Assembly: GCA_022925895.1 (NCBI GenBank) | Contig: JAKSYS010000173.1 | Coordinates: forward strand, 1-64,000 | Length of the DNA stretch: 64,000 nt | DNA from: Fragilaria crotonensis | Lineage: Eukaryota; Bacillariophyta; Fragilariophyceae; Fragilariales; Fragilariaceae | Direction of reading: 5' to 3' | Part shown: in pieces, positions 5,503 through 57,120 of the stretch | Layout of the letters: every line of letters begins with the position of its first letter | Position numbering within the stretch: position 1 is the first letter of the stretch | Notes under the pieces: generated by a model | Databases searched by the model: none | What the model was told of the DNA's origin: nothing | Seen by the model: the letters and a program-made list of their open reading frames with translations, nothing else | Made by a program: the position numbers and the translations under genes

Positions 5503-5504
5503 TA

Positions 5505-14442: not shown

Positions 14443-14456
14443 GATGAAACCAGCCA
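14443..14456 (-). repeat. TE2-B right terminal inverted repeat
   Basis: GATGAAACCAGCCA, followed by TA at 14457-14458. It matches the left repeat without a mismatch. Confidence 0.87.
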
Positions 14457-14530
14457 TACTGTAGGCAGTATAAGGATTATTAGGTGAAACGTGAAACGCA
14501 CAAAGCGGAACGACCGTATACAAATACATT

Positions 14531-16840: not shown

Positions 16841-16849
16841 TCAGCACCG

Positions 16850-17735: not shown

Positions 17736-17767
17736 TTGGTAGACGCTACCGAGCAGATCGCGTGTTT
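17736..17767 (+). mobile_element. Short left remnant of the copia fossil, ending in the LINE target site
   Basis: This short piece lies between the Plavaka-like fragment and LINE H. It belongs with the copia-type sequence that resumes at 44,702, as shown by the shared 14-bp target duplication. The left boundary is approximate. It is a fossil. Confidence 0.5.
17754..17767. repeat. Target-site duplication of LINE H (left copy)
   Basis: CAGATCGCGTGTTT, 14/14 identical to 44702-44715. The outer neighbours differ (g versus t; a versus g), so the length is fixed. Confidence 0.93.
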
Positions 17768-17780
17768 ATATATAAAACCT

Positions 17781-17862
17781 AATTATAGAGGGTTAGCACC
17801 GTCTAGGAACCGTGAGGTTCCCAGAGTGTACCCCGTTCCGGCGTGCGTTAGCACGCGAGAAC
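17781..17862 (-). other. Conserved three-stem RNA motif in the 3' UTR of LINE H
   Basis: Read on the minus strand: a hairpin GCGTGC-TAAC-GCACGC, an invariant GCCGG, a long-range pairing of GGGGTACAC with GGTGCTAACCC, and inside it a hairpin GGAACC-TCAC-GGTTCC. It ends with ATAATTAGG shortly before the element end. The same arrangement with different stem sequences is found at the ends of E2 and E4. Confidence 0.75.
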
Positions 17863-17885
17863 TTAATTACTACTGCTGTGGTTGG

Positions 17886-18734
17886 TTACCGTACTGTGGG
17901 GAAAAAACTTTGTATGGTTGTCTGACGTTTGCCGTCGATTGCATGGAGTTGCACGGAGGATTTGATGAGTCGTAGCCATCTGCGTCGTGTTGAGGATGAC
18001 CCTGATAAGAGTTTGTTCAAGCTTCTATTGCATAGATGTCGATCGTCGAAGCGTAGTAGCTGGGGCGTTGGTGGTAGTAGGATACTTCGACTTGTTCTGC
18101 GGTGCGAGCGGTGTTGAGATTTTTGGTCTGTGTCTCTTCGTGTAGGACTGAGTTGCGAGCAAGCCAGAGAGTGCGTGTGAAGATGTGGATGGCGGAAATG
18201 CTCGTGCAGGTCTCTGGAGTCCTTTGGGTTGATCTGATTTCGTGGCGGATAGCATATCCAGATGAGCGAGAGCGCCAGGCCGTGCTGAAACCATTGAGTA
18301 GGTGCTTCCAACCAATCCGTTCCTGGGAGGAGATTGCTTGGTGGATAGAGTCGTGGAGGTGCGGGAAATGCTCAACGTTCGGACGGAAAGGTCGGTCAGG
18401 GTGTTCAATCCAGTGTTTGATCCCTTCGATCAGCAAAACCGGATGGGGTGTATGTCGTGTGTGCGAGAATTGTTTTCCTTAGTGTGTCCATGGCGGCTTC
18501 GGCCTCGGGATTTTTGGTACATGTGAGAAGATGTTGCTTGTCCTCTGTTGGGTGGTTGCAGCATGGGCACTTTTCGAGAATGGGGTCAGGGATGGGCGCC
18601 TGTCGGTTGCGTCTTTTCCCGAGTGGTTGTTGATCGTGTACGTGTTTCATGTGGGAGATTTGCTGATGTGGAGGTAGAGAGCGAAAGTGGGATCCGAACA
18701 TTTCGAAATCGATCTCCTTCCAGACTGCGTTTGA
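17886..18734 (-). pseudogene. LINE H ORF2 C-terminal end (zinc knuckle and tail)
   Basis: The frames 18405-18701, 18017-18436 and 17886-18311 together cover the end of ORF2. The zinc-binding block CPCC...H...C lies near 18,575. The tail ends in QSFFPTVR at a stop codon 118 nt from the element end. Two frame changes separate the pieces. Confidence 0.8.
18721..18734. repeat. Target-site duplication of LINE E2 (left copy)
   Basis: CAGACTGCGTTTGA, 14/14 identical to 27515-27528. Confidence 0.93.
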
Positions 18735-18751
18735 TAATAATAATAAAAGAA

Positions 18752-18833
18752 CTAATTATCGGGTTATCACCACGCAAAAACCTTCCGGGATTCGCCGTGT
18801 ACCCCGCTCCGGCAGATTCACTTCTGCGAGAGC
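18752..18833 (-). other. Conserved three-stem RNA motif in the 3' UTR of LINE E2
   Basis: Minus strand: hairpin GCAGA-AGTGAA-TCTGC, then GCCGG, then GGGGTACAC pairing with GTGATAACCC around an imperfect GCGAATCC/GGTTTTTGC hairpin. The stems differ in sequence from those of H and E4 but pair in the same places. Confidence 0.72.
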
Positions 18834-18891
18834 TCTAAACACATACCGAGCAGAAGCTGTCGTACATTGACACCGCGCCACTGTAGGTTAA

Positions 18892-21800
18892 TCATAGTGT
18901 CGGTTTCGGTTGGAAAAAATTTGTCATGAGCATTTGGGTATTTGGCGCATTCTTCTTTTTAGCAGCAGAACGGACGGCTCTACGGAGCCACCTTACTTGA
19001 GTCGATTTTGGTGCACGTAGAATTTGTTCCAGAGTGAAGCGGAACAGATATTGATCCTCGAAACATACCTCGTCTCGATGAAGGAAAAAATGTCTGATCT
19101 CTGATTGATGGGAAGACCTGATACGCTCTGCCTCGTTATGCTCTGTGGAGTGGAGCAGTTTATTCCTGTTGATCCAGGCTGAGCGTGTATATGCATGGAG
19201 TGCCGAAATAGTCCTGAGCATTCGTTGACGTGCGAGACGAGAATCAATTTGTTTGGACGCATCGTCTTTGTCGAGGGGATGCAAGATGAGTCCATGCTTT
19301 ACTGAGGTATCCCCGAAGAGCATTGTCCCATCCAATTGCCGACTGTTTCTGTAGAACGTTGTGGACGGCCTCCCTCATGTGCTGTGGATACTGCTGCATG
19401 GTTGTGGGGTAAAATTCTTGGTTCCCGGTGTGCTGCCAATGTCTGATTCCGTCCATCAGAAGGTGTCTCAGCAGATGGGGCGACTTCTCGTAAGAGTCTT
19501 TCGATATCTGGGATCTTCCTTCGAATAGCTGATCGTTGCTGTGACATCTCAGAAAGTGCTCTGTCGTCTCTTTGTCAGATAAACAGCATGGGCATGTTTC
19601 CAGATGTTGGTCATTTGTCGCAGATTGTTGACGTCGCCTCCATCCCAGAGGTAACTGATCGTGAACTAATTTCATATGCTGGGTGCGTTGTGAAGGTCGC
19701 AAACGGCGGAAGTGGGTACCAAAAATGTCAAAATCCACGTCGTCCCATACCTTGTCCGACCATTTTCTCTTGTCCTGGATATACTGACGCAGATGGTACC
19801 CGTTGATGTGAAAACGGAGACAGTCGTCATATTGGCTTGTGAGCCTGCATCCATGTATCGAGATTGATATTTTTTGAGATGGGTCATGATCGACACGTTG
19901 TGAGGACTTGAGTTTGCCTCTTAAACGATACCGAGTTGCAAGGAAATCCGCGGAGACGTTTAGACGAACGAGAAAGGAAGGGAATCGTACGAATTCAATC
20001 GGTCTTGGTGGCCTTTGATCCAAGCATAGACCACCTTACAGCGCAATTCCTGCAGAAGGGATGCGATGATGGAAAGGAGATCTGCTTCGTTTGGTTGTCT
20101 GGTTGCCCTCCATCCGCGGCGTGTTATCAACCGAACTTTTGAAAGCGCTGCCTTGCTATCGGTAATCCACTTGAAACGGCTTCTGTGTTTCAATCCCCAA
20201 TAACGCGCAAGCCCTGTTATAAACAGAAGAGAAGAAGCGAAGCCCGCGAGTTCGCTTCGCGTCGATGAATTGGTATCAAACGGGCCGTCCACCGGGCCTC
20301 CGCATTGAAAGAGAGGAAACTTCCTAGTTGAGATGACCCATCCAAAGGTCCCTTCGTTGCCGGAAAGCCCTCCGTCGGACGCGATATATAAACGCTCTCT
20401 AGATCGAAATGCCCGCCAAACCTGGAGATCCGTTGCCACTTGGGTCACGTCCTCAACAAGTCGTCTTTGTGTTCGGGAAAGTGTTGCGAGGTAATCACGT
20501 ATGGTCGGGAAGGACGTCGGAGCCATCTCGACTTTCTTGGAGGTCGGACGCTCTCCCGTTGGGGTTGATGGAGTAGAAGAAGTAGGCGGTGTCTTCCAGA
20601 ACGGGATATAGCGAAGGAAGGACGATGTTATGTATCTCTTCCATAAGCGGCGTTGATGGGCTGACGGAGCTTCCTGCCTGGGCCATATATGATGAGTTTT
20701 CCAATGAGGAGGTCGACGTCCATTAAGAAAATCTGTATGGATTGCCGACAGTCTCCCTGGATCGGTGAGATCTGCAAGTGATGTGACTTGAAGGTACATC
20801 CTAACCAGATTCAAATCTCGTTGATGTGCAGTGGAATATCGGGCGAGATGGGATTGCTGCATGATGAAGGCATCGGAGTCGGTTTTGAGAGACAGTTGCG
20901 GTTGATCGGTGATTGTGATAGTTGCATTGTGTGTCGCCAAAAACTTTCGAAGAGACAGTATCCAACAAGGAGTTAGGTATGGAATCTCATATGATGGATT
21001 TTCGAGCAATGGTTGTCCGACTCCTGCTTCCAACTGGGAATGGTGCAGATTGATACGAATCATAGTGCCTGTTGCCGAGCCCGAGTAGATCGCGTTCCGA
21101 AGATATTTGATTTGTTCGATGCCTGCTTCCGTACGTACGTCGTATAGTTCCATGCCACCATATTCTATTGGCCCATGTCGGATAGAGGTCGGGAGTTTGG
21201 AGCTAACCTGCAGCTTTTGAAGCATGGATGGGATGATCTTTGTCTGGATTTGATGAAGGCTTTCTTCGCTATCCGCCGCGATGGCTGCAAGACTGTATCG
21301 AAGCATGGGAACATAAATGGACCGGTGGAACGTCATGACGTCTGACGGAGTTATCCGAGGAGAGCGAAGGCGGACAGCGAATGTATCCGCTTTGCTCTTG
21401 AGAAACTTGATGTGGTCCGAAAATGTTCCCAACGGGTTTAGATGCACTCCTAGTATACGTGCCGACTTGTCTAGTGGAACCTGCTTAATGGTAGTCGTGA
21501 GTCCCGATTCTGCCGAGTTGAGTTCTATGGGCGGATCAGTATGCGCGATAGGTCGAAGACGCGGTCTGCCGGAAACCCACTCCCAGTACATAATATACCA
21601 GGTACATTTGGAAAGGTTCAGTTTGCCGCCCGACAGATGAAGAAGATGTGACCAGGTCTGAGCGACTTCTTGCAAACGACGGATTAAGTTGTCGTATTCC
21701 ATTTGGCCCTCTGCATCGGTGAAGCCCAAGTACGTATCATCCACGAACGCGTCTGCAAGCCTTGATGAGGTCACAGATTTGTCTGGCGATTGGAAGGTCA

Positions 21801-24618
21801 TACGTTCTGGAATGACCTTATCCAGTGTATGCAATAACAGAACCACCAAAGATAACCATACAGCGGGTGATGCACCACTGCCCTGACCTGTGCCGAATAG
21901 AGGCTCAAAACTTGTTCCATGGTAGTTGTCATATGAGACGCCGTAGAATGTTTTCACCGTGTATCTCATAAACTCGAGGGACTTAGCATGGCTCAAGATT
22001 GCGTTCTCAGGCATGCCGCACCGACGGGCTGCCAACATACCTAGTGCAACAATAATGCGATCATAGCAAGCTGATGCGTCATTGTCGAAACGAACCAGAT
22101 TCGTTTTCAGAACTCTACAAAGGTCGGTTGTTAGCTGCGTCATCATAATAGGGTCCATTGTGGTTCGACGTGGCGTTGATCCGAATTGGCTATTATGGAG
22201 TAGATCTAATTCATCGGCTCTCCGAACCAGGCGCGATCCCCAAAGAAGCTTAAGAATGAAATTGAAATCCGCTTCAAATAAGTGAATAATGCGAAGTCGA
22301 TCAATCTGGGGTCTCCCTTGATCTTTTTCGATCAAAACATTTGTAGCATTCTGCCATCGGGGAAGAGAGATACCATGAGTTAAGACAATAGACAAAAATT
22401 GCCTTAGACAACGCAGAAAATCGGGATCCTGAATGATTGCGCGGTAGTGTCCGAGATGGCGACCAGAGGGAGACGTTGAAGTTGTTTCTTTCCACTTAGA
22501 GAAACCAACTACAATATCGGACTCCGTTATTTCGACGGAGATAGGGTCGTTGTTGAGTACTGCCGCGGGAACTGTGAAGGATAATAAGAACTCCTTAAGA
22601 ATCTCGTCGTCTCCATGCCAATGATCTGGAACGATTCCCGCAAGTAAATTTTTTGCGTCATCCGAAATACTCGTAAAGGTCAGAGAGTCGTAAATGACGC
22701 CGCTTCCACAAGGTGAACATGCCGCAGCTCTAAACGCCTCTCTGTTGAAGGTTAGAGATGACGCTCAATGTCGCTTTATCGAGAACAGTGTCCCAAACAA
22801 TGTCCGATTGATCGTTCGCGTTTAATATAGAATGAATGCTGGTCCCGGGTGGAGTAGCTTCAACGCTGTTCTTATTCCTTGGAACAAGTATCTTCGAAAG
22901 TTGGGAGAAGGATCCTGGATTGAGTTCCTGTCTGAGATGGTGATAAAGACCTCGGCACGACTCGGTTTGGATCGTGCGTCGAACAATTTTTGCTTTCCGT
23001 TGTGATTCCTCTGAAATTCCGAAACCATCATCTTGCGTGTAGGTATCAAGCAACTCTTCGTATGACTTGATTCGAAGATCCAGAGAGGAAACCTGACATT
23101 TGCGGAAGTTACGCGTTGCGCAGTTGAGATGTTTCCGGATTGTAGGTGTATCTAAACTTTGGTTGATGAGGGGGAAAGAGAACGAAGGATCCTGACGTTG
23201 AATGCGTTCTTGCCAATTCCGAAAGGTATTTGCATAGTTTTTGGATGCTGTTGATTCTCGAAGTCTAAGAATCCAATAGCGCCTTATAATTGCCGCGTTC
23301 CGGAGAGCTGGAGACCAGTCAAACTTCTTCGGGGGTTTCGTAAGTTTTCTCTCTGAAGCAGCCATCGCTCTACCTTGGTCCGAGTCCCACTGGATAAGTT
23401 TCCTGCGCAGCTCATCTTTACTCATAGTCAAATGAGATGAATAGAGATGATCCATGCGGGAAAACATGTTGTGCGATTCATAATACACACGCATGTGATT
23501 GAGATATGATGACACTAGCTCCGGGTTGTTTGTGTGAAGTGGCCGGTGAGTTGACGGAGCTAGTGGTTGTTGTATCAGGTTCTTCTGAAGTTCCCCAATC
23601 TCGAGATCAACAAATAAGCCTCTGTGGTCAGATTGCGGACCCTCGTTGTATGCCAAAGCGCCTGCTCACACATTTTGTGCTAGAGATTCGCTGCCATAGA
23701 TAAAGTCAATGCGGCGGGATGGGAGCCGATGTACGTCGAGTTGGGTGGGTTATCTTGGTGAAGATCAACGAGGTTGCAAGAGACCAGAAAATTCTCGAAA
23801 AATGATTCATTATGCGGTTGTGAATTCGCGTCCATCATTAAAAGGATAGCATTCCCATCGTCCTGGAGTTGTCTTATTACTTCTGCCAGGTGTTGGAAAA
23901 ATAGCTTTCTGGGATTAGGAGACTTATAGCCTTGATCCTTGAAATAATGGTATTCCCTACTGAACGAACTGCCGAGTGGAGATGTCCTCACATTTCCAGA
24001 GCACACTCTGTAGGCGGTGATCACCGTTAACTTGAAATCGCTCGAGCCGCGGATAGTGAAACCACACCATCTTCCGAGTCCCGTTAGATCTTGAATACTG
24101 TCTCCAAAGATGCTTGATGTGATTGTACCCGTTACCGCAGTAAGGGAACCTCCTGGTTGATATGTCGATTCAACAGAGCAAGGATCGATAGCCTGGGACG
24201 GGTACCCGAAAACAACTCTGCTTTGTTGATGGTGTTTCCGAAGTATTTTCTTGAAGTCGCTCTGAAGATGGTTGTGCTGCCAGCATGTATTTGTCTCCGC
24301 TAAGCCTGCCACATCTATGTGAAAAGACTTTATGGACTGAAGATAATAGTGGTAATCTTCAAGGCCTGGAGAAAAAGTCAATCCGTGTACGTTTTGAAAA
24401 AAGAACCGAATAGACGATTGGGATTTTTGTGTTATTGAATCGCCAAAGGATGTGGTTACATGTGGATCTGTCGGTGATGCCCATGCATGTCGATTTGGTC
24501 GACTTCGCGGAGCCGAGAGTAAACTCGATGTAGGAAGAGGAGGAGTGCTTATGTGCGGACGTTTGGAAAACCTGTGCGCTGGTTCAAACGTCTTGGTCCG
24601 AGGACAGAAAAAACTCAT
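18892..24618 (-). pseudogene. LINE E2 ORF2: endonuclease, reverse transcriptase, RNase H, zinc knuckle
   Basis: ATG at 24618 overlaps the ORF1 stop as ATGA. The endonuclease (frames 23680-24618 and 22730-23656) shows FFQNVHGL, AETNTCW, MMDANSQPH and SDHRGLFVDL. The RT (19960-22395) shows RFDNDASACYDRI near 22,075, GTGQGSGASPAVW near 21,880 and AFVDDTYLGF near 21,740. RNase H follows with ASDGG, RSELAG, ITDSKAA and KGHQD, the four acidic positions of the family. The C-terminal CPCC...H...C knuckle is near 19,600, in frame 19244-20023, and the tail ends at 18892. About four frame changes interrupt it, near 23,670, between 22,395 and 22,730, near 20,000 and near 19,300. Confidence 0.88.
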
Positions 24619-27419
24619 TTGTTTAGCCCACCGTCTGGAGCTTTGGATTCGTATTGAGCTTCCAGTACGGTAGAGATTTCGTCGAGTTCTGATGATGGAA
24701 AGGCGACGCCTTGCTGTTGCGACTCAAATTGAGTCAATTCGCTAGTATGCTGCGGGTGTGTCTGTGAACGGATTGAAGTATGGGAATCGGTGCTGCTGGG
24801 TGGAGAAGAGCGTACTTTTTTCTTCTCTGGTGACGGGAACGATGTTGTGGAGCGGTATGACATTGATTCGTCGGAAGAGTCAGAGCTGGACTTATTGGAA
24901 TCGAAATCTCCCGTGTCAACAAGTTGTAGAATTGAGTCGGTGCCATACTGAGATTGCTGGTAAACTGCGTTTTGGGAGTTATCCGTTGTGGCGGCGCCTG
25001 AACTGGAATTTCCTTTAGGCTTAGCCAGTGATGTGACGACAGATATGAGTGAATTGATTTTATCCTCAATGGATAGCACATTGTCGCCCATAGTGACTTG
25101 ACGCTCCATGAATTGAACCACTTGACTTTCCAAACCCCTGAAACGAAGTTTGTGTTCTTCGTGCGATGTATTAAAATCTTGTAAAGATTTGTCAATAGTG
25201 TCGAGGCGGTGAAATTGTCGTTCCATTTGACTAAGTCTGTCGTCAGTGATCTTGCTCAGTTTGTCGTGATCTTTCCTCTGACGTTTCCATATCGCATCCA
25301 GTTCATGAAAACGAGCCTGTGTGGACGATATAGAGGTTGCCTTGCCTGAGTTTGATGACGCCGTTGTTACCGTTTGATCATCTTGATTTCTGTGCTGTCG
25401 TAATGGTAGACTTGCTATGGATTGCTGACCTTGGTAAGAGTCGACAGTGGATTCCGAAATAGAAGTGTTGGATGAGAACCGAGATGAAACTGATGAACCA
25501 CGGCGATCAGCGTCCTTAGAAGCTGGTTTTGTTGCAATAGTTGCGTCATTTCGCCCACTCTCCGTCGGGGAAACAAGGCTGTCGAAAATTGCGAGACTCT
25601 CATTTATTTTTTGTCTTGTGATTTCAATAACAGCCGGTGGTCGCCCAATTGATGATCGAAACCTCTCTTCTCGTTGCCTGAAGGGAAATACTCGACCCTT
25701 GTAATCTGAGAATTCAGAGAGGACCCGTTCGTAATGTTGAGGTGGGACCAACATGTACGCTTTCTGGTCATATCCTCCGTTCACAACATCGCATTTGATA
25801 GAGGTAGTACTATCCGCTTCGGTCAACGAAAGACACCATTCACGAGTGCTTCGTTCTTTTGTCGTTCCGTTTGGGAAATGTTCCGATCTGAGTGTATCAA
25901 TGTTGGTTATGAACGGTGCCAAGGGAATCATCCTTAGGGATTTGACGTACGCGTCGTGTTTTGCAAAAACTGTCTGGATTTGCTCTGTGGACATACTTTC
26001 GAAAGCAAACCTTGGAAGGTATACTCCAATTTTGCTTCCATCGAGGAAGTTCAAGAGTGCTTGGCTTAAACTATGGACGTATCGTTCCCCGCATAAGATC
26101 GCAAGATGGTCAATTTTCTGTTCAAGAGGGGTCTGGCGATGTAGGAAAATGTCGAAATACGGAGTCGCGTCTGGTAGTTGACCTCGTAAATACTGAAGAT
26201 ATCTAACTCGATGAGTTAGATTCGGAGCCTTGAGAAGAATGTAACCAGCGACCACATGTTTTCCTCCAACACTTTTCGAGTTAGAAATCGCCACAGTAGC
26301 CTTGTGTAAATTGAGATTGTTCGTTGTGTTTGGATTGTTTCTCCAGGGGGTTGGGTTCTTGGAGTTGAAACCAAAACGAGTGGCAATTACAACGAGTGAC
26401 TGAGTTGGTGAGACCGTGACTGATGGGAGATAAGTGCGGACTTCTGAAGGAGACATTTGAGAGACGACTCTTGGATTCTCCAGACCTTCAGAGTGCCAGT
26501 TGTATAGCATTCCGTCGCTGTCAAGAAAAACTTTGACAAGGAAATCATAAATCGACTGATTCAGTGCATCGGACTGTTTTTCAACATTGCGGGTGTCAAT
26601 AGTCATTTGAATGCGGAAAGTCACACGGTGAGTTCCGTCATTAAGTGGAATGCTTAAATTGGGAATCAAGGCAGATTGTTTGGCGTCGTGAGATGATGCC
26701 ATCGAATTGGAGGAAAGCGACTTCTCGCTGCGAGTGTTGTTCTCTTTGGCTTGCACTTGTTGTCCGTTAGTGTCGCCGGATTCATCGGTCTCCTCTGGGA
26801 TCGGAGCAGGAGACGTCTGAGATGGCAGGTTGGAGAGGCGAGCCGCAGGAGTCTTTTTTGCCAATTGCAGGTTGGCAGTGTGTGGGGCGGGATCTTTCTT
26901 CCTTTTGTATGGATTCGTCATCTTGTTGTGAGGCCCAATTTTTTTCCAAGGGTTTATCTTCCCGTGGATAGACTTCCAGGATGTCGATGTTGTATCCAAT
27001 GATAGAATGTCTGGCGCATGAATCGAAAGGAATGGCTGGGAAATAGACATGGCCCAAGATTGTAGTTTCTCAGGTATGTCGATTTTTCTGTCGACATGGT
27101 ACATAAAATTATACCAAATCAAATGATGAAGCGGGGACGGGTCGGTAGTGAAAGAGTTCCAAATCTCGTCGAACCATGGACCTTCAATGGTGTGGCGAGC
27201 AAGGATTGCGTACCTGTGCCAGTGAGTGGTTGTAATTGATTGACGATAGATCGTTTCGTCAGAGAGGCGGCGGTACCGTTCTCCTTCAGTTTCAGGTGGA
27301 ATCATATCAAACGAGGATGGTTCGAACCACGAAGTAGTCTCGAAACCGAAAAGGGGATCGTTGTCAGGGGGGAGTATGTACTCAGAGAGCAAACGGGACG
27401 GGACCGTTCCTTCAGTCAT
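24615..27419 (-). CDS. LINE E2 ORF1 protein, 934 residues, intact frame
   Basis: The first ATG (27419) lies 95 nt from the element 5' end and is shared in position by E4 and E6. The protein has an N-terminal helical domain (IWYNFMYHVDRKIDIP), a Lys/Pro-rich linker, then a large conserved domain opening with PLNDGTHRVTFRIQM and containing GYILLKAPNLTHRVRYLQYL, PYFDIFLHRQTPLEQKIDHL and CGERYVHSLSQALL. Coiled coil follows (about residues 660-780, ARFHELDAIWKRQRKDHDKL). The end is acidic and Ser-rich. I see no RRM or CCHC knuckle typical of LINE ORF1 proteins. It is probably the nucleic-acid-binding partner in the LINE particle. The stop TGA overlaps the ORF2 ATG. Confidence 0.85.
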   Translation of the reverse strand: MTEGTVPSRLLSEYILPPDNDPLFGFETTSWFEPSSFDMIPPETEGERYRRLSDETIYRQSITTTHWHRYAILARHTIEGPWFDEIWNSFTTDPSPLHHLIWYNFMYHVDRKIDIPEKLQSWAMSISQPFLSIHAPDILSLDTTSTSWKSIHGKINPWKKIGPHNKMTNPYKRKKDPAPHTANLQLAKKTPAARLSNLPSQTSPAPIPEETDESGDTNGQQVQAKENNTRSEKSLSSNSMASSHDAKQSALIPNLSIPLNDGTHRVTFRIQMTIDTRNVEKQSDALNQSIYDFLVKVFLDSDGMLYNWHSEGLENPRVVSQMSPSEVRTYLPSVTVSPTQSLVVIATRFGFNSKNPTPWRNNPNTTNNLNLHKATVAISNSKSVGGKHVVAGYILLKAPNLTHRVRYLQYLRGQLPDATPYFDIFLHRQTPLEQKIDHLAILCGERYVHSLSQALLNFLDGSKIGVYLPRFAFESMSTEQIQTVFAKHDAYVKSLRMIPLAPFITNIDTLRSEHFPNGTTKERSTREWCLSLTEADSTTSIKCDVVNGGYDQKAYMLVPPQHYERVLSEFSDYKGRVFPFRQREERFRSSIGRPPAVIEITRQKINESLAIFDSLVSPTESGRNDATIATKPASKDADRRGSSVSSRFSSNTSISESTVDSYQGQQSIASLPLRQHRNQDDQTVTTASSNSGKATSISSTQARFHELDAIWKRQRKDHDKLSKITDDRLSQMERQFHRLDTIDKSLQDFNTSHEEHKLRFRGLESQVVQFMERQVTMGDNVLSIEDKINSLISVVTSLAKPKGNSSSGAATTDNSQNAVYQQSQYGTDSILQLVDTGDFDSNKSSSDSSDESMSYRSTTSFPSPEKKKVRSSPPSSTDSHTSIRSQTHPQHTSELTQFESQQQGVAFPSSELDEISTVLEAQYESKAPDGGLNK

Positions 27420-27462
27420 GGTGATCGGCACGAGAAGGCGCAGTACTGTTTCAACGGATGAG

Positions 27463-27477
27463 CGGGTGACGGACAGA
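27463..27477 (-). promoter_or_regulatory. Invariant 5' block of LINE E2 (candidate downstream promoter element)
   Basis: TCTGTCCGTCACCCG on the minus strand, 36 nt from the element 5' end. Near-identical blocks occur 34 nt from the start of H, E4 and E6. Confidence 0.6.
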
Positions 27478-27514
27478 AAGGCGATGCAAAAAATCGAAAT
27501 TGAAAAGTGTGTGT

Positions 27515-27528
27515 CAGACTGCGTTTGA
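27515..27528. repeat. Target-site duplication of LINE E2 (right copy)
   Basis: CAGACTGCGTTTGA, matching 18721-18734. Flanking bases differ. Confidence 0.93.
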
Positions 27529-32425: not shown

Positions 32426-32629
32426 GTGGAGGCCGCCCCGTCTGGATCACTTTGGCTTTTGTATTGAGTGTCCAGTAGGGCTTGGTTTGCGTTTTTTCTA
32501 CCCGTGCGTGGAGCTTTCTTATGAAAGATCGATGCGAGGCTTTGTTGAGATTCTTTCTGAGAGAAGAGGCGTTTGTTGAGTTGCTTACTTTCAGTTTTGT
32601 TGCTCGTTGTTGTTGTGATTGTTGTGATT

Positions 32630-32780
32630 GTTGTGTTGTCGTCGCTGTTGTCATCGCTGTTGTCGTCGCTGTTTTCGTCGCTGTTGTCGTCACTATTGTC
32701 GTCGCTTTTGTCGTCACTGTTGTCGTTGCAATTGTCGGCACTGTTGTCGTCGCTGTTGTTGTCGCTGTTGTTGTCGTTGT
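32630..32780 (-). repeat. 12-bp microsatellite coding for (NSDD)n in LINE H ORF1
   Basis: Degenerate repeats of GTCGTCGCTGTT (plus strand) encode about a dozen NSDD or near-NSDD units. The other LINEs have short Ser/Asp-rich stretches here but no expansion. Confidence 0.85.
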
Positions 32781-33540
32781 CTTCTTCGCTTTGACATAAT
32801 TGCATTTTGGTGGTTGTCAGTGCTCTGCTGCCGTTGTTTGGCGATCGGATTTTCTTTTTCTGTGGTGAGTTATAGCACAAATCTGTGAACGACCCGCTGG
32901 ACGAGGATTGTGATGTGCCTGTGTGAGTTGACATTTGTTGAACGGACTGGGGTTCCGAAGAGGTCGCTTGATGTGTTGAGCTGAGTGATGCGGAGTGGTC
33001 GTCATTAGATGCTGTGCCGATTTTTGTTTGTTCGTGATCTAGTCTGTTGGTAAGTTTTTGCATGAGTTCTGTTATTTTGTCGATGCGTTCTTGCATGGTC
33101 ATCATTGAGTCTGCCATTTTGCTCTGGCTTGTGAAGGAATTGACGAGGGAAGCTCCCATTTCTTTGATTTGGTCGTGTGTGTCGGTTTTGATTGATTGTA
33201 GCAGTGTTGATTGTGCGTCCTGTTGCTGCGTGACCATATTGAGTTGGGCGCTCATGTCTGTTATTTTTGTATCGAGGTGATCTAATCGTTTGAACTGGCT
33301 TTCCATGGAAATGAGTTTTGCAGAGGTAGTTTTTGATGACGAATCAATTTCTGTTTGTTGTTTGTGGAGGGAGGCTTCGAGTTCGTGGATGCGGGCCTGC
33401 TGAGTGGTGATGTTTGATGCTATCGTCATGGACTGTGTCGATCCGAGGCTTTGATCGTCTGATGTATGGGAAGGCGCTCCGTTGGTGGTAGAGGAAGTGT
33501 TGGAGAATTTTTTGTTGTTGTTGTATGGGGCTGTTGGCTT

Positions 33541-33556
33541 TAGCCATTGTGGTCGT
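33541..33556. repeat. Target-site duplication of LINE E4 (left copy)
   Basis: TAGCCATTGTGGTCGT, 16/16 identical to 42533-42548. Confidence 0.93.
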
Positions 33557-33570
33557 AAAATAAAATAAAA

Positions 33571-33655
33571 TGTAACCTAATTATAGGGTTCGCACCATGT
33601 ACCAGCCGGTAGGCCAGTACTGTGTACCCACACCCGGCAGCGTACCGCGGAGTGA
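33571..33655 (-). other. Conserved three-stem RNA motif in the 3' UTR of LINE E4
   Basis: Minus strand: a small hairpin GCG-GTA-CGC, then GCCGG, then GTGGGTACAC pairing with GGTGCGAACCC around a hairpin with arms GTACTGGCC and GGCTGGTAC. These arms pair completely if G-U is allowed. Compare the unrelated arms GGAACC/GGTTCC at the same place in H. Confidence 0.75.
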
Positions 33656-33710
33656 TTTATTTATTTATAGCTGGCACGACTGAGACTTATACATATCATG
33701 TGGTGCAATG

Positions 33711-36700
33711 TCATGTCGTCTGGCGAGGAAAAAAGGACGTCATTAGAGTTTGTTGAGAGCTCTCTTTCCGATAATCGTCCATGGATTGTTTCACAATGCG
33801 CAACCATCTTCGACGAGTCGACGCGGACCCAGAAAGAAGTTTATCTAAGGATCGAGAGCAGTAATGCTGATCACGTGGAAGCAAAAGATGGGGCATGCCG
33901 TGATAGAGTCGGATCTCCGCGATGTCGGTGTCTCTAGTCTGTCGAACGTCTTCGTCTGCCTGATCGTGGAGGGCAGAGTTCCTGAGAGCCAGATAGACCG
34001 CGAAAAGTTGTGGGTCGCCTCAATAATAGATCGTAATCGGGCATCGCCGCTCGCTGAGTTCGCACGAGTGGGATTATGAAAGTCGTGGCTAGCAGTCTTG
34101 CACCAGAGGGTGCTGAAGAATCCTTTAAAGCATTACCCCACCCAATGGCTTCCTGGGATTGAATGGCAGCCTGAAGGAGGAGAACAAACTCGGATCATAT
34201 TCCGATAGACTGGGAGTAAAAGGGACAGACGCTCCATGTTCCAACCAGTGAAGAAGCCCTGCTGCAATAACGTACCGCGCCGGGTGTGTGTCTTTCGTGC
34301 GAATGGCTGCTTGCAATTGTGCGACATGACTAGCACGTTGCGGAACTGCAGGACAACGCAGGAGATGTTCGGAGTTTTCAACAGCAACTTTGCAACAGGG
34401 ACATAGACTCAGCATCGGATCTTTGACCGGAGCTTGGCGAAGACGACGAACGCCCAGGGGAAGCTGATCATGGACAAATTTTGTGCGAGTGATCTGATGT
34501 CGTGACGAAAGACGACAATAGTGCTTACCAAAAAGCTGAAGATCAATCATGTTCCAAACATCGTCCGACCAGCCGTTCTGGTCCTGCATGTAGCGTCGAA
34601 GGTGATAGCCATTCACATGATAGCGTATACATTCATCATACTGGCCAGTGAGACGTTGATTGTTAATAGAAATGGAGCATTGTTGAAATGGAACGTGATC
34701 ACAGCCTTGACGAGACGGCAAGGAACCCGTCGTGCGATATCCCGAAGCGAGAGAATCTGCCGCAATGTTTAAGGTTGCTGACACCGAAAGTATCCGTGTT
34801 CTGGAGGAGGAATCTTGATGTCCTTTAACCCAGCAGTGTTTGAATTTGCATTTAATTGAAGCAAGATGCATCCGAATGAGCGAAATAAGGTCTGCATCAG
34901 ATGGCATGCGCCTTGATGGACGACGTGTTGCAAAACGTCTCACTCGAGAAATTGCCGCTTTGCTATCGCAGATCCATGTAAACTTGGATTTATGCCGAAG
35001 ACCCCAAAACCTGGAAAGATGATCAATGAAGAGTAAGGCAGAGGCGTATCCGAAGAGTTCACATCGCGTCGATGAAGATGTATCGAAGGGCCCATCTACT
35101 GGACCCGCGCATCGAAATAATACGTGGGAGCCGGTTGAGATTACCCAGCCGTGTGTTCCCTGATTATTCAGAAGACCTCCATCAGTGGCAACATACAGTC
35201 GCTTGCGAGCCCGAAATGATTTCCACACTTGGAGATCCGTCGATATCTGTTCGAGACTGTCTATCATCCGTCGATGTGATTGTGGGAGACTCGAGAGGTA
35301 TTCCATAAGATTGTCGAAGGTAGACGGAGACGAATGCCGAGTTTGAGTTGTAGTAGCCGGAGATTTAGGGACGGGAACTTTTTTCCAATACGGAATGTAG
35401 CGAAGAAACGATGACTTAATATATCCCTTCCATAGACGAATCTGTTGCTTAGACGGGGTCTGTTGTCGCGGCCATTGTTGATTCGCAAGAAAGCTCAGCG
35501 GTCTTTTGCCATCCAAGAAGGACAAATTAATTGCCTTGGGATTCGAACCATCTGTTAATTCGGCAAGGGTATTCACTTGGAGAAACAATCGAACAAGGTT
35601 AATGTCCTTTTGTTGAGCAGTGGAATACCGTGCAAGATGAGATTCTTGCATTATATACTCATCCGAATCACCTCGAAGTGGAATCTGAAATGGATCGCTC
35701 ACCGTAACGGACATATTGTGAAGCGATAGGAATTGCCGAAGGGAGAGAATCCAGGTTGGGGTAAGATAGGAGAGGTGTATATTCGGAAACTGTAGGAGGT
35801 CTTCGCCAATGCCAGCTTCAAGTTGAGAGTATTGCAGATTCAATCGAAGCAACTTGCCGTTCTCAGATTCACTGTAGATTGCATCTCGGAAGAATTTCAA
35901 CGATTCAATTCCCGCTTCTGTCCGTAGGTCATAAAGATCTAAACCTCCCAGCTCACGGGGTCCGTGTCTAATAGCTGTAGAGATAGTGCTTTGTACATGC
36001 AGCTTCTTTAGGATGGCTGGAATAATGCGGGATTGTACGGTACTCAGCTCTTCTTCATCAAGTGCGACAGTTGCCAATCCGTATCTCATAGAAGGTACAT
36101 ATGTGGTCCGATGAAAAATGCTTACGTCTGCCGCAGATAAACGGGGCGACATGATGCGAGTCGCAAAGATGTCTGCCTTTTCTTCATCTGTTTCAGGTGA
36201 AAACCAAAGTCGCCAAGGGATTCATGAAAACGCCTAACATACGTGTAGACTCATCGGGTTTTGTCCGCGTGATGATGGATGGGTTGTGTTTTTCCGTGCC
36301 GTGATAAATCTTGACCTCTCTGTCCGTCGCCGCAATTGGTCTAATTACGGGACGACCCTTTGTCCACTCCCAGCGAACTATAAACCATGAGCACTTTGCC
36401 AGGTTAAGTTTTCCACCGGACAGATGTAATAGATGCTCCCACGTCTGCGCAATCTTTTCCAGGCGGGCAATTAGATCGTCGATATTATTGGTATCCGATG
36501 ATGATGTGAAACTGAGAGAAGTGTCGTCGACAAAAGCGTCCGATAGTCTGGTGTGAACCATATCCCCGAAATCGACGAAATTCACGCGATCAGGTATCAA
36601 GCGGTCCAACGTTTGCAATAGAATGACAACGAGGAAAGCCAGACAGCAGGGGAGGCTCCGCTCCTTGACCGGTTCCGAAAAGGAGAGAATGTCGTCCCAT

Positions 36701-39451
36701 GATAATTTTCCTCTGATATGCCATAGACCGTTTTCACAGTATATTTCATGAATTGTAGGGCATCGGCGTGTGTTCTGATTGCGTGTTTCGGCATACCACA
36801 TTTCCGAGCCGCGAGCATCCCCAGTCCGACAATTATGCGATCGTAGCACGAAGAAGCGTCATTGTCAAAGCGAGCATAGTCATGCTTCAGAATCCGACAA
36901 AGATCGCTTGATAGCTGAGTGAGCATTATGGGATCAAGTGACATACGACCTGGAATGGAACCATGTTGACCATTGTGTAGCAGATCAAGCGATAAGGCTC
37001 GGCGAACCAGACGATGCCCCCACTGAAGTTTTAAGAAAAAATTGAAATCCGCCTCAAATAGATGCACAATTCGAAGCCGATTAATGCGTGGCCTACCCAC
37101 ATCCTTTTCAATTAATACATTGACAGCCTGACTCCATCTCGGAATAGAAATCCCGCTGCCAATCGCTATGTTCATGAATTTTACGAAACAGTCCAATAGG
37201 ACTGGATGTTGTATTTCGGACTTATATAATCCCAGATGGCGTCCCGACGGTGAAGTGGATGTTGTTTCGCGCCAGGATTGAAAGCCTTTTCGAACATCGT
37301 CATGGCTGATTGCAGTCTCGATATATCCCTTTACCTTAACCGAGGGGGGAATTGTAAAGATGCGAGAAACTCGCGTAGTGCCTGATCCTCATGTGACCAT
37401 TCACATGGTGGCATACCGTCGAGTATCTTGTCGGATGCCAGAGATAATCCCGAAAATGTGATGGCGTCGTACAATAGACCATTGCCAAACGGTGATTCAC
37501 TTGCTGCCCTGAATGAGTCTCTATTGTACTTCAGAAGATGCGCTTCCATTTGGGACCTTTCGATCACCGTGTCCCAGAGGACATCGGATGGATCTTGAGT
37601 TTGAAGAATGTGATAAGCACTTGATGCCTCTTCCCCATCTTGATCGAGAGCCGAGGATCCCGATGGAACCAAGATTTTTGAGAGACTAGATGCTGTAAAT
37701 GGTTTAACCGTGCGACGGATTTCGCGAAATTTATTCCGAACCGTTTCGCCGTCGATTGTCCTCCGAACGACTTTTGCTTTGTGTCGAGACGCTGTCATAG
37801 TTGCAGGATTGGTGTCTGTTTCATACCTGACAATCAAATCTTCGTAGCATTTCAGCCGCATTGGCGTGGCATCAGCTTGACATTTGTAAAACTCTGACGA
37901 CGCTTTATTAAACTGCGCACGGACTTCTTCGAGAGGTAGTTCCTCATTGAGAAAGGGGAAGAAAAAGTTTTGATCGTGCTGTCGGAGCTGACCTTGCCAT
38001 CGTGTGAATGTTGCAGAGTAATTTTTTCCTTCTTGAAGTTCTCGTAATCGAAGCTTCCAATATAAACGAGTAAATGCTTTGTTGCGGAGGATCGGGGACC
38101 AACGACATTTTTTTGGAGGTCGTTTTAAAACATTCTCCGCTGCCTTCATTGCTCTGCCCTTGTCATTATCCCATCCAACTAGTCTGGCGCGAATATCATC
38201 CCGCGACATGGAATGGTAATTATTGTGCAGGTCGTTTATTCGCTCTACCATACGGTGTGCGGTGTAATACTCCACGACTTTGTCATTGTATTTCGCGACA
38301 AGTTCTGGATTGCCTGTATGCACCGTGCGAGACGAGGGTAGAGATATTGCCGAAGACCTCTGAAAAAAATCCAGCTTGAGATCCACGTAAAGACCGCGAT
38401 GGTCTGACTGTGGGCCCTCGTTATACGATAATGTTCCTGATCTTTCCAGGAATTGTCGTGCATGATGACAGCCCAGGATGAAGTCAATTCGACGAGATTC
38501 AGCTCCAATGTATGTTGACTCCGCCGGATCGTTAGCATGAAGATCGAAAAGTGTGCAGTGATCAAGAAAATCAGCAAAGTGAGTATCGGATTGCAGAGTG
38601 GAATTAACGTCCATCATGACTATGATCGCATGGCCCTGTTCTTGAAGTTGAAGTACTTGTTGTTGAAGATCGCGAAGGAAAAGTCTTCTGGGATTGACTG
38701 ATTGCTTGGTGGACAAGTGGAAATAATTATATTCTCTGGCAAAGGAACTGCCGAGCGGCGCGGAGCGAATGGACCCAGAACAGACGCGATAAGCTGTAAT
38801 CACGGTAAGTTTTGTGCCTCAGGCCGAGAAAGTGATTCCAGACCATCTGCCGAGACCCGTAGGATCAAGGATGTTTTGGCCATGTACTCGGAAACTAGAC
38901 AACCCACCACAAATGTAAGTGTCCCCCAGCTTGATACGTCTCTGAAGAAGGTATCGGATCAATATCGTTGGATGGTGAACCGAAAACAGTTTTGCTCTGC
39001 CTGTGAAACCTGCGTACCACGTTGTTGAAATCATCCCGTAGATGAAAATGTTGCCAGCACGTGTTGGTCTCAGCAAGACCAGCAACATCGACATGGAGTG
39101 ATTGAAGTGAGTTCATAAAATACCTGTAGTCGTCGCTACCCAGAGAGGAACTTAAACCGTGTACGTTTTGGAAGAAGAGTCGCACTGTATTGTTGGATTT
39201 TTGAATGATGGCATCTCCATATGACTTTGACGCAAAGGAATCTAAGGGATTGTGGCAAATGCGGCGTCCAGGGCGATTAGGAATGGACATGAAATGGCCA
39301 ATTGGAAGAAGGGAATGGATGAATCGATGGGAAGATTGCGATAACTAAAAGACTTGGAAGACGTAGAATTTTCTGAAACATGGGTTCCCGCGGTCGATTT
39401 CGTGTTGCAGAAATCGTCCGCAGCTCACTGTTGTCCAATGGGAAACTCATG
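33711..39451 (-). pseudogene. LINE E4 ORF2: endonuclease, RT, RNase H, zinc knuckle
   Basis: It likely starts at ATG 39451 (MSFPLDNS, like MSFFCPRT of E2). Endonuclease pieces 38895-39290 and 37331-38803 show LFFQNVHGL, AETNTCW, MMDVNSTLQ and SDHRGLYVDL. RT pieces 36597-37196 and 36193-36849 show RFDNDASSCYDRI, SGASPAVW and AFVDDTSLSF. The RNase H domain in 34125-36152 shows VATDGG, RCELFG, ICDSKAA and VKGHQD, followed by CPCCK...H...C near 34,390. The tail ends at 33711. About six frame changes occur. Confidence 0.87.
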
Positions 39452-42438
39452 TCGCGTCCCTCCGCCTTGAGAGCTATGTTCTTTGTATCGACTCTCAAGG
39501 TCGGTGGTGATCTCATCCATATCTGTTGATGGTGAAGATTCGGCGTTGTCGTCTGGTGGCAATGGTGTATGTACGGCCTGGGAGAAAGGATGCAAGTTGT
39601 CCAGATTGGGATCATCGGACATCTCATCAATCGTGGTGACCATGATTGTAGGTTGTAAACTCCGTCTGCGGATCCGTTGCTGTCATCTTTGTCGTGGCTC
39701 ATGCCGATGTCCTCCATGTCGTCTTTGTGGAAACCAGCTCGATACTTCTTTTTGATAGGTGACGAGAAGGACTCCCTATCCAGCTGACGATTTGATGAAT
39801 CCGACGGGGACGGAAAGGACTGTTGGTTGGTATTTGCCACGGTTGCGGTGGAGTTGGTGTCATTGAGCAATGGTGAAATGCCAAGTGCTTGACCGGTGTT
39901 CATGTTTGTTATAGCGATCATGTCCATTAGAGCCGATAGTTTGTCGCTGAGTTTGTTCATAGTTCCGCCGACTCCGGCTTGTGTTTCCATAACATTCATG
40001 AGATTGCCTTGCATAGTGTCGAACCTGTGATCCATATCGTCAAATCTTGTAAATTGTCGTTCCATGCGTTCCAGTCGCTCCGTATTGATACGATCCTTCC
40101 GATCAAATTCCTTCTGTTGACGTTGGATTCGAGCTTCTATTTCTTGGAATCGGGCTGTGGATGTTGACATTGAAGACAATCGGGAAGTGGCAGAATTGTT
40201 CGAGTCAGTTGATGCTGTTGTCTGTGCTGTGGAACGCAGACCATATTGTTCCCGAAGTGAATCCAATGATGTCGGTGGAGCCTTTGACTTAGCCATTTCT
40301 TTCTGTTCCGTGGAAATTTTAGAACCTCCTGTTTCAGAGGATGAATCGTTTGTTGTAGATACAGGTTGGTCGGCTGCTCCGCCGGGTGTCAGAGAAGAAT
40401 CAGCTTTCGATCCTGATTCTGCAAATGACTCGTCGCCTTGAACTGATGTTTGCTTCCACGATTCCGTTGAAGAGAATAATTTGTCAATAGAAGACAAATT
40501 TTCATTTACTTTAGAGAACACATGTATAACTGATGGAGGAGGACCGATTGCTTCTCTGAACCGTTCTTCTCTGATCGAGAAAGGAAAGACTCGGCGACGG
40601 TACTCTTCAAACGCTTGACGAACAATGACTTCGTGCTGAGGAGCCATGAGTAGGAAAGATTTTTGATCGTAGCCTCCATTAACGACATCGACATGTGCTG
40701 ATTCGTTTCCGTCGGCAGATAGGATGGATGCGGCCCAGTCTCTTGTGGTTCTCTCCATTGTTGTGCCATCCGGGAAAAACTCTGTCCTCATGGTGTCTAA
40801 ATTGTTAATCAGTGGAGACAATTGGATATATCTGAAGGACTTGATATAAGAGTCGTGCTTGTCAAATAAATTCATTGCCTCGGCCGTCGTCATTTTCGCG
40901 AACGCAAATCTCGGAATGTAAACTCCAGCTCCAGATCCGTCCAGTGCAGAAAGTAGCGTCTGGCTCAAAGAATGAACGTGGTTTTTTCCACATTGTACCA
41001 CCAGATGATTGATGTCCTGATCAAATGGAGTTCGTCGATGAAGGAAAATGTCGAAAAAAGGAGTCGTGGCGGGAAGCTTGCTGCGTAAGCTTTGGAGGAA
41101 ACGTGTGCGATGAGTTGTGCGAGGAGCTTTGAGAAGTATATAACCCGAAATGACCTGATCGCCGCTGGTGCTTTTGGAGTTTGAAAACATCACTGAGACT
41201 TTGTTCCTTGTGAGTGCTTCCTGCACTCTCGACTGGTTTTCCAATAGAAAGACGGTTTATCAGTGAATCCGAACCGAAGCGCAATAATGATTTGCGATTG
41301 GGACGGTAGAACCGATAGGGAAGGAGCAATGTACGATCGGACTTCCTCTGGCGTCATTTTTGATAAGGAGTTGTAATTGTCAGTTCCTTCGTCTTTCCAC
41401 AGGTATAGAAGGCCATCCTCGTCTCGGAAGATATCGTTGAGAAGCGAGTGGATTGCAACGGATAATTTCTGCGATTGCTGAGATAAGGCAAGCGAGACGA
41501 CGTCTGCCGTCGTTTTCCAACGAAGCGAGATACGAATGGTGCCATCATTAATAGGAATGTTCGAGTTTGGAATCAGCGCCGACATTTTTCCATCCGCGGA
41601 CGATGTAGTAGAATTCGACTCCTTGTTCTTTTCTTCATGACCTTGTGGGTGGCTTTTTGGTGGCGGGTTGTTGATCTGTGGGTGTGGTTTGGTTACTGGT
41701 GGGAGCGGAGTTGTGTGGGACTTTGGAGTGGGCGTTTGAAGTGTTTGTGCTTCTGGGACTCCTGGAGTTTCCACATCCATCGGTTCGTCGTCTAGTTCTT
41801 CTGGAATTGGAGGGGTAGTGAATGCAAGTTGTTGTTTGAAGAGGTCTGTTGTCTTAAGAGCGATTGACATCTTCTTTGGCCCAGAGGATGTTTTCCTGGC
41901 GATCTGGGTACGACGCTTTGCCTTCGCGGATCCGATGACCTTGTTCCATGAGTAGATATTGTTTGCACGCTTTGCCCACGCCTCGAAACCGACTGTGATC
42001 GTGTCCACTGGGAGAACTTTATCGGTGTGAGTGGATAAGTAGGGAAGAGAGAAACTGTTTGCCCAGTCGTGAAGTTTCTTTGGAACATCGAGTTTACGGT
42101 CAATGTAGTACATATAACGATACCAAACAACTAAGTGAAGTTGAAGTTGATCGTTATCGAAATTGTTCCAAAGTGCTTCGAAGTTGGGAAAAGACACAAT
42201 GTTTCGCCCAAGAGTTGAAAACCTATGCCAGACAGTTGGAGTGGTATCGTTGCGTTGGACTGTTTCCTCATAGATGCGTTTGACGCGATCGTTCTGCGTC
42301 TCAGACAAGTGCTCAGGAGGAATGTCGGTATCGGGGGAAATCCTTCCAGTCCTTCAAATGAAAACCAAAGTAGTTGTCAGTGTCAGGAGGGAGGGACGTG
42401 AGGAGGGTTTGGGACGGATGAGCCGCTGCTTCGGTCAT
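39425..42438 (-). pseudogene. LINE E4 ORF1, frameshifted
   Basis: ATG at 42438, 94 nt from the element 5' end. Frames 41190-42438, 39277-41244 and 39425-39643 cover the same domain plan as E2 ORF1: VWYRYMYYIDRKLDVP, IPINDGTIRISLRWK, GYILLKAPRTTHRTRFLQSL, FFDIFLHRRTPFDQDINHLV, then coiled coil. Two to three frame changes occur, near 42,340, 41,220 and 39,640. Function is as for E2 ORF1. Confidence 0.83.
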
Positions 42439-42483
42439 GGTGGTGACGCACGGGACGGCTTCGGTGGTTTTTGTACTGCAAAA

Positions 42484-42498
42484 CGGGCGACGGACAGA
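42484..42498 (-). promoter_or_regulatory. Invariant 5' block of LINE E4
   Basis: TCTGTCCGTCGCCCG on the minus strand, beginning 34 nt after the element 5' base. Confidence 0.62.
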
Positions 42499-42532
42499 CT
42501 GGTGTTTCAAATTCTTAATACTAGAAATTGTG

Positions 42533-42548
42533 TAGCCATTGTGGTCGT
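42533..42548. repeat. Target-site duplication of LINE E4 (right copy)
   Basis: TAGCCATTGTGGTCGT, matching 33541-33556 exactly. Confidence 0.93.
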
Positions 42549-44606
42549 GTGGGAAAGTTCGTAGAAGGGTTGGCTTGGGAGGTGACTTGAGGTTTGCCTC
42601 CACCGTTGTTGCTTGTTTGAGTTGGTAGTGGTTGCCATGCGTTCATGTTTGCGAGGTTTGTGATAAAAGCCATGTTTGTCTGGGCGTTTGCCGTGATGTG
42701 AATGACGTCGGGGAGATCTGAGATGCTGGCCCTGAAGCGGGCTTCCCGGTGTTGTGTTGGGTTTAATCTGGCTTTGTATTCTTTGTACTGGGACTTGATA
42801 TGGTCGTAGTATGGGCTAGGGACGAGAAGGTTTGCTTTTGGTCATGTCCTCCGTTTACGACGTCGCAGAGAGCTGGTGAGTTGTCATTTGCCACTAATTG
42901 TGCTGCCCATTCCCGTGTGGATCGTTCAATAGATGTACCGTCAGGAAAAGTTTCTTTTCGAATGCGATCCAGATTCGATACGTGTGGGAAGAGTGAGAGT
43001 GCTCTAAGGGATTTGGTGTATCGCTCGTGGAATTCGAATTGTTGTTTGATTTGTTCATCGGTCATTGATCCCAAGGAGTACCTGGGCAGGAATAGCGCCG
43101 TTTTGTTGCCTGTGAGATATTGAGTGAGGGCGTGACAGAGGGATGTTGCATGGCGTTCTCCGCATTTGACTCCGATGTGATTTATTTCTTGGTCCATCGG
43201 GGTTGTTCTCAGTCGGATGAGATCAAAGAAGGGGGTGTTGTCGGGTAGTTGGTTTGTCAGATGTTGTAGGTAGTATAACTGGTTTGTCGTGTTCGGAGCT
43301 TTGAGTAGAATGTATCCGACTGTGACCATGTTGCCGCTGTCACATGTTGAGTTGGAGATCGAGACGTTGAAGTGATGGCTTTTCATTAATTGTTGAGTGT
43401 TTTGTTTAAATTTCCAATTCGATGGGTTGCCGGAGAATCGAAGCGTAAGCCAAAGATAAGTAGTGAGGTTGCTTTGAGGAAGGAGATTTTGGTGAGAGAA
43501 ATTGTTTGAGTTCATCGAGTTGGAGAGTAGATACCGGTTTTGTGGTTTGTGGGGCGTTACTTTTCCATGGATAAAAAGACCATCTTCGTCCTCAAAGGCG
43601 TGAGTAATCAGTTGATGTATTTCGTAGATGAGTTCGTCTTCGTTTTCTTCTAATCGGGCGAGATAGTTTTTACTGAGTTTCCATTTGATTGTAATGCGAT
43701 GAGTGCCGTCGTTGATCTTTTTGTTTGGATGAGGGATGTATGTATTGACCGGGTTCTGGTGGACTCTCGTTCCTGGTGTTGTACCTGCGTCGCTTGGTGG
43801 GTTGATGCTAGTGCTTTGATCTTTCGGGGTGGTCTGGGCTGCCCATGCGGGTGTGTTGCCAGTGGATGTTCGGTTGTTTAGCCAGGTCGAGAATTCATTG
43901 TTTGTTGTAGTTGATGTATTTTCTTCGTCAGTGTGTCGTTCTTCAGTTTGGTTGACTGTGGTTGGTTTCATGCTTGTACGTGGAGTGTCATTCTCTGGGA
44001 GATTGAATCCTGGGGCGATGTTGGTGTATGGGTTTTGATTCGCAGCTCTGGTTAGTGAGGAAACACGTTTTTTTGTTGCTTTGGCTTTTCCCGCCGAGAT
44101 GACTTCAGTCCATTGGTCGTCTTCAATTTCCATTGGGGTGTGAGTTTGCTGGGTCTGTTTCCACGAGGTTATGGTGGTGTCTATGGTCAATAGCTGAGGT
44201 GCGTTGTTGATGAGGTATGGTTGTGACACTTGAGTGGCCCATGCGTTGAGTTTGGTTGGTATGTCGATGTCGCGGTCAATATGGTATAGGTAGTTGTACC
44301 AGATTATGCTATGCATCTTGGTTGGGTTCACTTCGCGGGCGCTCCACTCGAGATCGAAGAAAGCTCCATCGTCAATTGCGAAATATCCGAGTGTGACGTA
44401 CTTCTGCCACTTGGCTGGACTACTGATTTGCTGGTAGAGTGCGTCGTTTGCACGTCGGCGGTAGATGGAATCGCTCAAAGTTTGATCGATTGGTTTAAAA
44501 ACTGGAGGGTCCATCAATCGGTACGGTCGAACTTGAACATGGGTTTGGAGAGATCGGGTGGTTTGTTTGGATCGGGTAGAAACGTTGATGCCGTTCCGAC
44601 GTTCAT
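42533..44606 (-). pseudogene. LINE H ORF1, N-terminal part
   Basis: ATG at 44606, 94 nt from the 5' end, opens MNVGTASTFLPDPNKPPDLS. A frame change near 44,515 leads into the long frame 42763-44517 with IIWYNYLYHIDRDIDIPTKL, KINDGTHRITIKWKLSKN, GYILLKAPNTTNQLYYLQHL and FFDLIRLRTTPMDQEINHI. A further shift near 42,763 leads to a Pro-rich stretch ending RPQWL at the E4 junction. Confidence 0.82.
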
Positions 44607-44651
44607 GGTGGTGGTTGCACAGGACAACTTCCTACTGAGTTACGTATAAAA

Positions 44652-44666
44652 CGGTCGACGGACAGA
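44652..44666 (-). promoter_or_regulatory. Invariant 5' block of LINE H
   Basis: TCTGTCCGTCGACCG on the minus strand, beginning 34 nt after the 5' base at 44,700. Confidence 0.62.
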
Positions 44667-44701
44667 CTGGTATGTACGTATCTAGATTTTAGAAATTGTG
44701 T

Positions 44702-44715
44702 CAGATCGCGTGTTT
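44702..44715. repeat. Target-site duplication of LINE H (right copy)
   Basis: CAGATCGCGTGTTT, matching 17754-17767. Confidence 0.93.
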
Positions 44716-57032: not shown

Positions 57033-57053
57033 TTTAAACTTACGAGTGAACGG

Positions 57054-57068
57054 TCTGTCCGCAGCCCG
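57054..57068 (+). promoter_or_regulatory. Invariant 5' block of LINE E6
   Basis: TCTGTCCGCAGCCCG, beginning 34 nt after the element start at 57,020. Confidence 0.6.
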
Positions 57069-57120
57069 AACATACGTACTTTAAATAGGAAATCGTAGCG
57101 TAACCAACCGTTGATTGACC

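Follow-up and report, generated by a model that had tools for sequence, protein, structure and literature searches.

Nested clusters in which LINEs are inserted into LINEs have been described in the green algae Coccomyxa and Chlamydomonas, where they are formed by Zepp and Zepp-like elements (PMC8226300, PMC3446292). According to excerpts of these descriptions, a Zepp cluster is built from one family, consists mostly of 3′ ends through 5′ truncation and occurs once per chromosome. Retroelements are described in an excerpt of PMC6911290 as commonly inserting into one another in large genomes, and the nested plant LTR retrotransposons resemble the present case in this respect, although they are LTR elements and not LINEs. 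In the stringent-type LINEs ZfL2-1 and ZfL2-2 of zebrafish, the ORF2 protein binds a 3′ stem-loop (PMC4176376, in part). In a diatom genome, LINE/Ambal elements are mentioned in an excerpt of PMC12803021 and are a candidate comparison by annotation name alone.

The locus analysed here lies in a 64-kb stretch of Fragilaria crotonensis DNA, which is referred to as the window. It resembles the Zepp clusters in that LINEs are inserted into LINEs in a nested arrangement. Unlike Zepp, as far as the excerpted descriptions set the two apart, the nest combines three families at one locus, and all of its members have both ends. The nest is of an ordinary kind, since self-nesting LINE clusters are already known; its family members are new.

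Architecture of the LINE nest

Approximately 27 kb of minus-strand LINE sequence (17754–44715) consists of one element, H, that is interrupted by two others, E2 and E4 (Table 1). Both E2 and E4 sit directly in H, but at different sites: E4 lies in ORF1 and E2 in the C-terminal region of ORF2. The first-pass annotation had proposed that a single host LINE was cut twice, and this layout is borne out by exact target duplications, by the contiguity of H and by ends shared among the elements. The three elements also have the same orientation and similar lengths, as that annotation had noted. The nesting layout, with H as one element later cut by two full-length LINEs, is regarded as real with high confidence.

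Table 1. Coordinates of the LINEs, their pieces, target duplications and 3′ ends in the window
Feature	Coordinates	Strand	Description and basis
H, whole	44701 down to 17768	−	9148 nt net of inserts
H piece 1	42549–44701	−	5′ end and most of ORF1; flush with duplication at 44702; TCTGTCCG 5′ core common to E2, E4 and the fourth copy, L5
H piece 1 ORF	42763–44631		
H piece 2	27529–33556	−	ORF1 end and most of ORF2; frame carried on from piece 1; codon-aware alignment of 4726 nt with E2 and E4
H piece 3	17768–18734	−	ORF2 C-terminal end and 3′ UTR; alignment to E2 and E4 begins where piece 2 stops; 3′ end matches model R1, E 1.3e-20 (model built from three sequences, H included)
E2, full-length LINE	18735–27514	−	8780 nt, within H ORF2; homologous with H and E4 in the 5′ core and at the 3′ end
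E4, full-length LINE	33557–42532	−	8976 nt, within H ORF1; homologous with H and E2 in the 5′ core and at the 3′ end
L5, fourth LINE of the clade	57020–59419	+	5′ end and ORF1 only; tblastx to H, E2 and E4; 5′ end aligned
H target duplication	17754–17767 (H 3′ end); 44702–44715 (H 5′ end)		CAGATCGCGTGTTT, 14 nt; exact, not extendable
E2 target duplication	18721–18734 (E2 3′ end); 27515–27528 (E2 5′ end)		CAGACTGCGTTTGA, 14 nt; copy at 18721–18734 is part of H piece 3
E4 target duplication	33541–33556 (E4 3′ end); 42533–42548 (E4 5′ end)		TAGCCATTGTGGTCGT, 16 nt; copy at 33541–33556 is part of H piece 2
H 3′ end	17768–17859	−	Hairpin and short A/T-rich repeat tail; folded alone, z −5.99
E2 3′ end	18735–18830	−	Hairpin and (TTA)n-like tail; folded alone, z −1.12 only
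E4 3′ end	33557–33649	−	Hairpin and (TTTTA)n-like tail; folded alone, z −2.68

The three duplications were confirmed by word counts and by the failure of each pair to extend. Each duplication word has only two occurrences in the window, which are both on the plus strand, and none of the pairs can be extended by even one base on either side. Target duplications of variable length (14, 16 and 14 nt) that lie flush with the element are a LINE feature. Exact 14-mer pairs are not rare in themselves: 30 word pairs are found at a spacing of 5–30 kb in the 64-kb window after pairs starting in an unrelated repeat (3600–5600) are dropped. These collapse into 17 runs, which comprise the 3 duplications, 7 homologous LINE positions and 7 others. 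By chance, a pair flush with both ends would arise with a probability of about 1.6e-6 per element, with 21 × 21 placements allowed. What exceeds chance is therefore not the 14-mer identity but the fact that the two copies of every duplication abut the element exactly at either end.

The coding sense of H continues across both cuts, in agreement with the first-pass annotation. The piece junctions were located by codon-aware alignment with two references, E2 and E4, and this alignment brings pieces 2 and 3 together to the base in both. At the E2 cut, piece 2 ends and piece 3 begins at one and the same position in each reference (7755 in E2 and 7964 in E4). The H frame is open there (FMQSKNKW, then SNAVWKEIDF), in an order that agrees with the protein of E2 itself. 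At the E4 cut, the reading frame of H ORF1 continues from ANPSTNFP into RPQWLKPTAP, and conserved blocks to the left and right of the cut follow one another in E2, E4 and L5 as they do in H. The region is poorly conserved, so the evidence at this cut is the in-frame passage and not contiguity at the base level.

A rearrangement, tandem or ectopic, or a mis-assembly that joined pieces of several LINEs could also be considered. The assembly probably does contain indel errors, as indicated by a 1.84-kb direct repeat outside the nest that is described below. Nevertheless, mis-joins would not place three exact duplications directly at homologous ends, nor would they produce H pieces whose junction agrees to the base with two references, and this explanation is extremely improbable.

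In the preferred reading, in which one host LINE was cut twice, H (an element of ORF1-ORF2 type) would have inserted antisense to the plus strand and beside coding sequence of Copia type, duplicating 14 nt of its target. E4 and E2 would later have inserted into ORF1 and ORF2 of H with 16- and 14-nt duplications, respectively, by target-primed reverse transcription, presumably through an endonuclease nick and then priming at the 3′ tail. The simplest cause of the nesting would be that a region rich in repeats, in which disruption does no harm, repeatedly received insertions.

Divergence, decay and coding content

In the main ORF2 stretch, the amino-acid identity is 52% between E2 and E4, 56% between H and E2 and 54% between H and E4, and it is lower (41–46%) in the last ∼155 codons. 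The ORF2 sequences differ at 38–41% of first, 27–28% of second and 67% of third codon positions. This pattern would be expected of long-diverged lineages under selection on the protein. H, E2 and E4 thus represent three different families of one clade. With 52–56% ORF2 identity and 67% of third positions different, H does not belong to the family of either insert. The claim that H was cut by related full-length LINEs stands for the full length, and for the relatedness at the level of a clade, but not for membership in one family. Because H and the inserts belong to different families, "self-nesting" holds at the clade level only.

Neither Pfam, nor PDB searches, nor the predicted fold lend support to reverse transcriptase (RT) or endonuclease domains. 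Pfam detected no RT or endonuclease model at E 0.1 in any of 10 ORFs, and an RNase_H match in one H ORF (E 1.3e-4) is below the cut-off. The blocks FDNDASACYD, FVDD, FFQNV and SDHRG in the LINE ORFs are what we take to be RT/endonuclease motif-like sequences. No PDB relatives were found, the sole match (E 0.21) being meaningless, and the AlphaFold model obtained for the RT-RNase H ORF of E2 is, at a mean pLDDT of 36, unusable for a fold search. The end of H ORF1 (32422–33576) contains a long run of Asp-Asp-Asn-Ser repeats that is not seen in the E2 and E4 frames.

When frameshifts are allowed in the alignment, ORF2 of H has no in-frame stop in 4726 nt, and the compared ORF2 regions of E2 and E4 have one each. 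The absence of in-frame stops in a 4.7-kb ORF2 means that H does not look like long-dead DNA; the zero-stop bound for H corresponds to 1.58% substitution, on the assumption that closely spaced frameshifts hide no stops. When homology is ignored and different penalties are used, piece 2 of H reads with three frameshifts and seven stops. Ten frameshifts, seen against both references, are located in ORF2 of H, compared with 3 in E2 and 5 in E4. Age was also sought from decay, but this approach was rejected: H has more frameshifts, yet stops are found only in E2 and E4, so decay does not settle the relative age.

Frameshifts in the LINEs need careful reading because of the indel excess in the 1.84-kb direct repeat. 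Its two copies (3680–5516 and 12641–14470) are 98.8% identical and 8.96 kb apart, and over 3680–5505 they differ by 14 indels versus 2 substitutions. Nine of the 14 indels involve one base within a run of at least three. The excess suggests long-read assembly indel errors or slippage. In H, a run of at least three bases occurs within the 26 nt shown at 6 of the 10 frameshifts; the other 4 have none nearby, so not all H frameshifts need be assembly errors. A third, partial copy of the repeat (∼80%) is present at 54473–55138.

Element ends and a candidate 3′ hairpin

H, E2, E4 and L5 align at their 5′ ends over a core, TCTGTCCG, and a start, ACCATG; the core has three further occurrences elsewhere in the window. 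The first bases read CACAATTT in H, E4 and L5 and are absent from E2. At the 3′ ends, H, E2 and E4 share a block that closes with ATAATTAG and is followed by a short A/T-rich tail. Judged by both ends, the three elements are full length. No direct or inverted repeat of at least 60 nt flanks H, E2 or E4, and the tails are composed of short A/T-rich repeats; LINEs likewise lack long terminal repeats and carry a simple 3′ tail.

A model of the 3′ end matches three places in the window at E ≤ 1.3e-20, which are the same three sequences from which it was built, and the next best place has E 0.69. Therefore, no recognizable 5′-truncated copy with this 3′ end is present in the window. Relatives of the LINEs were found neither in viral contigs (1 and 81 pattern matches) nor in prokaryote contigs (238 pattern matches), so the element ends rest on the window's own copies.

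The three 3′ ends fold into a consensus hairpin of 16 base pairs, in which seven invariant outer pairs enclose a nine-pair inner stem. In the three sequences, 95.8% of the 48 cells are paired, and 5 of the 16 pairs, all in the inner stem, are changed on both sides. Five double-changed pairs are reached by 4 of 500 shuffles, and slid structures reach at most 2. The best single-sequence fold of the E2 3′ end differs from the consensus and lacks the outer stem. A conserved 3′ stem-loop in the RNA, which characterizes stringent-type LINEs, is thus seen in three sequences, with a weak single fold in E2. The arrangement of a conserved terminal hairpin followed by a short tail is like that of ZfL2-1 and ZfL2-2 in the excerpt cited above, the hairpins being likened by description and not by sequence. 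By analogy, we infer that the ORF2 protein probably recognizes the hairpin common to the three elements.

For three LINEs, a single contig thus defines the two ends and the target duplications, and it also supplies a candidate hairpin for recognition at the 3′ end. These features should make the clade easy to annotate in algal genomes.

Target choice and surroundings

The first-pass annotation had raised a target preference for the family's own sequence. This idea was not upheld: the inserts are assigned to other families than H and lie in unlike parts of H at unlike sites. Insertion into the own family, as in Zepp-like elements, is not what is observed, given that E2, E4 and H share only 52–56% of ORF2 residues and differ at 67% of third positions. 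A similarity between the H and E2 target sites, whose duplications both begin with CAGA, was considered and dropped, as an equal or higher score is obtained for 22% of random pairs from the window. For the three pairs of target sites, the fractions of random window-site pairs with an equal or higher score are 0.22, 0.49 and 0.49.

A broader possibility is that LINEs of this clade prefer LINE sequence or LINE-rich chromatin, as Zepp does in green algae, where its clusters lie at centromeres. The nest would then be a self-nesting cluster of small size, and its location might be a centromere or some other silent region. H occupied 19.8% of the window before the insertions, and both inserts, which have the same orientation, are located in it. 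The probability of this by area is 0.039, and ∼0.01 with orientation included, before allowing for the after-the-fact choice of the window; the excerpted account of the Zepp clusters (PMC3446292) provides a precedent. However, the value of 0.039 is not evidence of preference because the window was chosen for looking odd, and two insertions cannot show preference. The inserts are also not of H's family, and the target sequences are not shared. Moreover, L5 lies outside the nest, on the other strand and beside a leucine-rich-repeat ORF, so the clade also inserts outside LINEs, and genes and other transposons surround the nest. A preference for LINEs is therefore very unlikely. A more ambitious form, in which a diatom-like alga has a clade of long LINEs that arrive at full length and collect in one another as a stramenopile counterpart of Zepp, guided across families by chromatin or by the 3′ hairpin and possibly marking centromeres, is also very unlikely. 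An excess of LINE-in-LINE insertions over chance, if it held for different families, would suggest that chromatin guides the targeting, which the present data do not show.

L5 covers the ORF1 region where E4 cuts H, and its 3′ part is absent within the window, with the 3′ limit judged by eye. The leucine-rich-repeat ORF (55500–57032) has its stop codon inside the first 13 nt of L5. Remains of other mobile elements are abundant around the nest, and frames that resemble genes (leucine-rich repeat and ZZ finger) lie further out. The Copia and leucine-rich-repeat frames give the host context a diatom-like look. When the empty site of H is restored with one duplication copy, its flanks read SVQHSGLGRRYRADRVFEVKRLSGKFATDTAYGK without a stop across the site. 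This frame leads towards a Copia-type RT (Pfam RVT_2, E 4.5e-13, on 45583–46761). The stretch at the target site is presumably integrase; Pfam gave no match on 44686–45174, where the site is located. A Plavaka-like transposase frame (16759–17742; Pfam E 0.0022, below the cut-off) ends close to the H target site. Elsewhere in the window, the ORF at 8701–10080 weakly matches the POT1 single-stranded DNA-binding domain (E 0.0011, below the cut-off). The ZZ-finger ORF (52279–52860; Pfam ZZ, E 1.1e-17) holds a 291-nt tandem duplication that is 90% identical.
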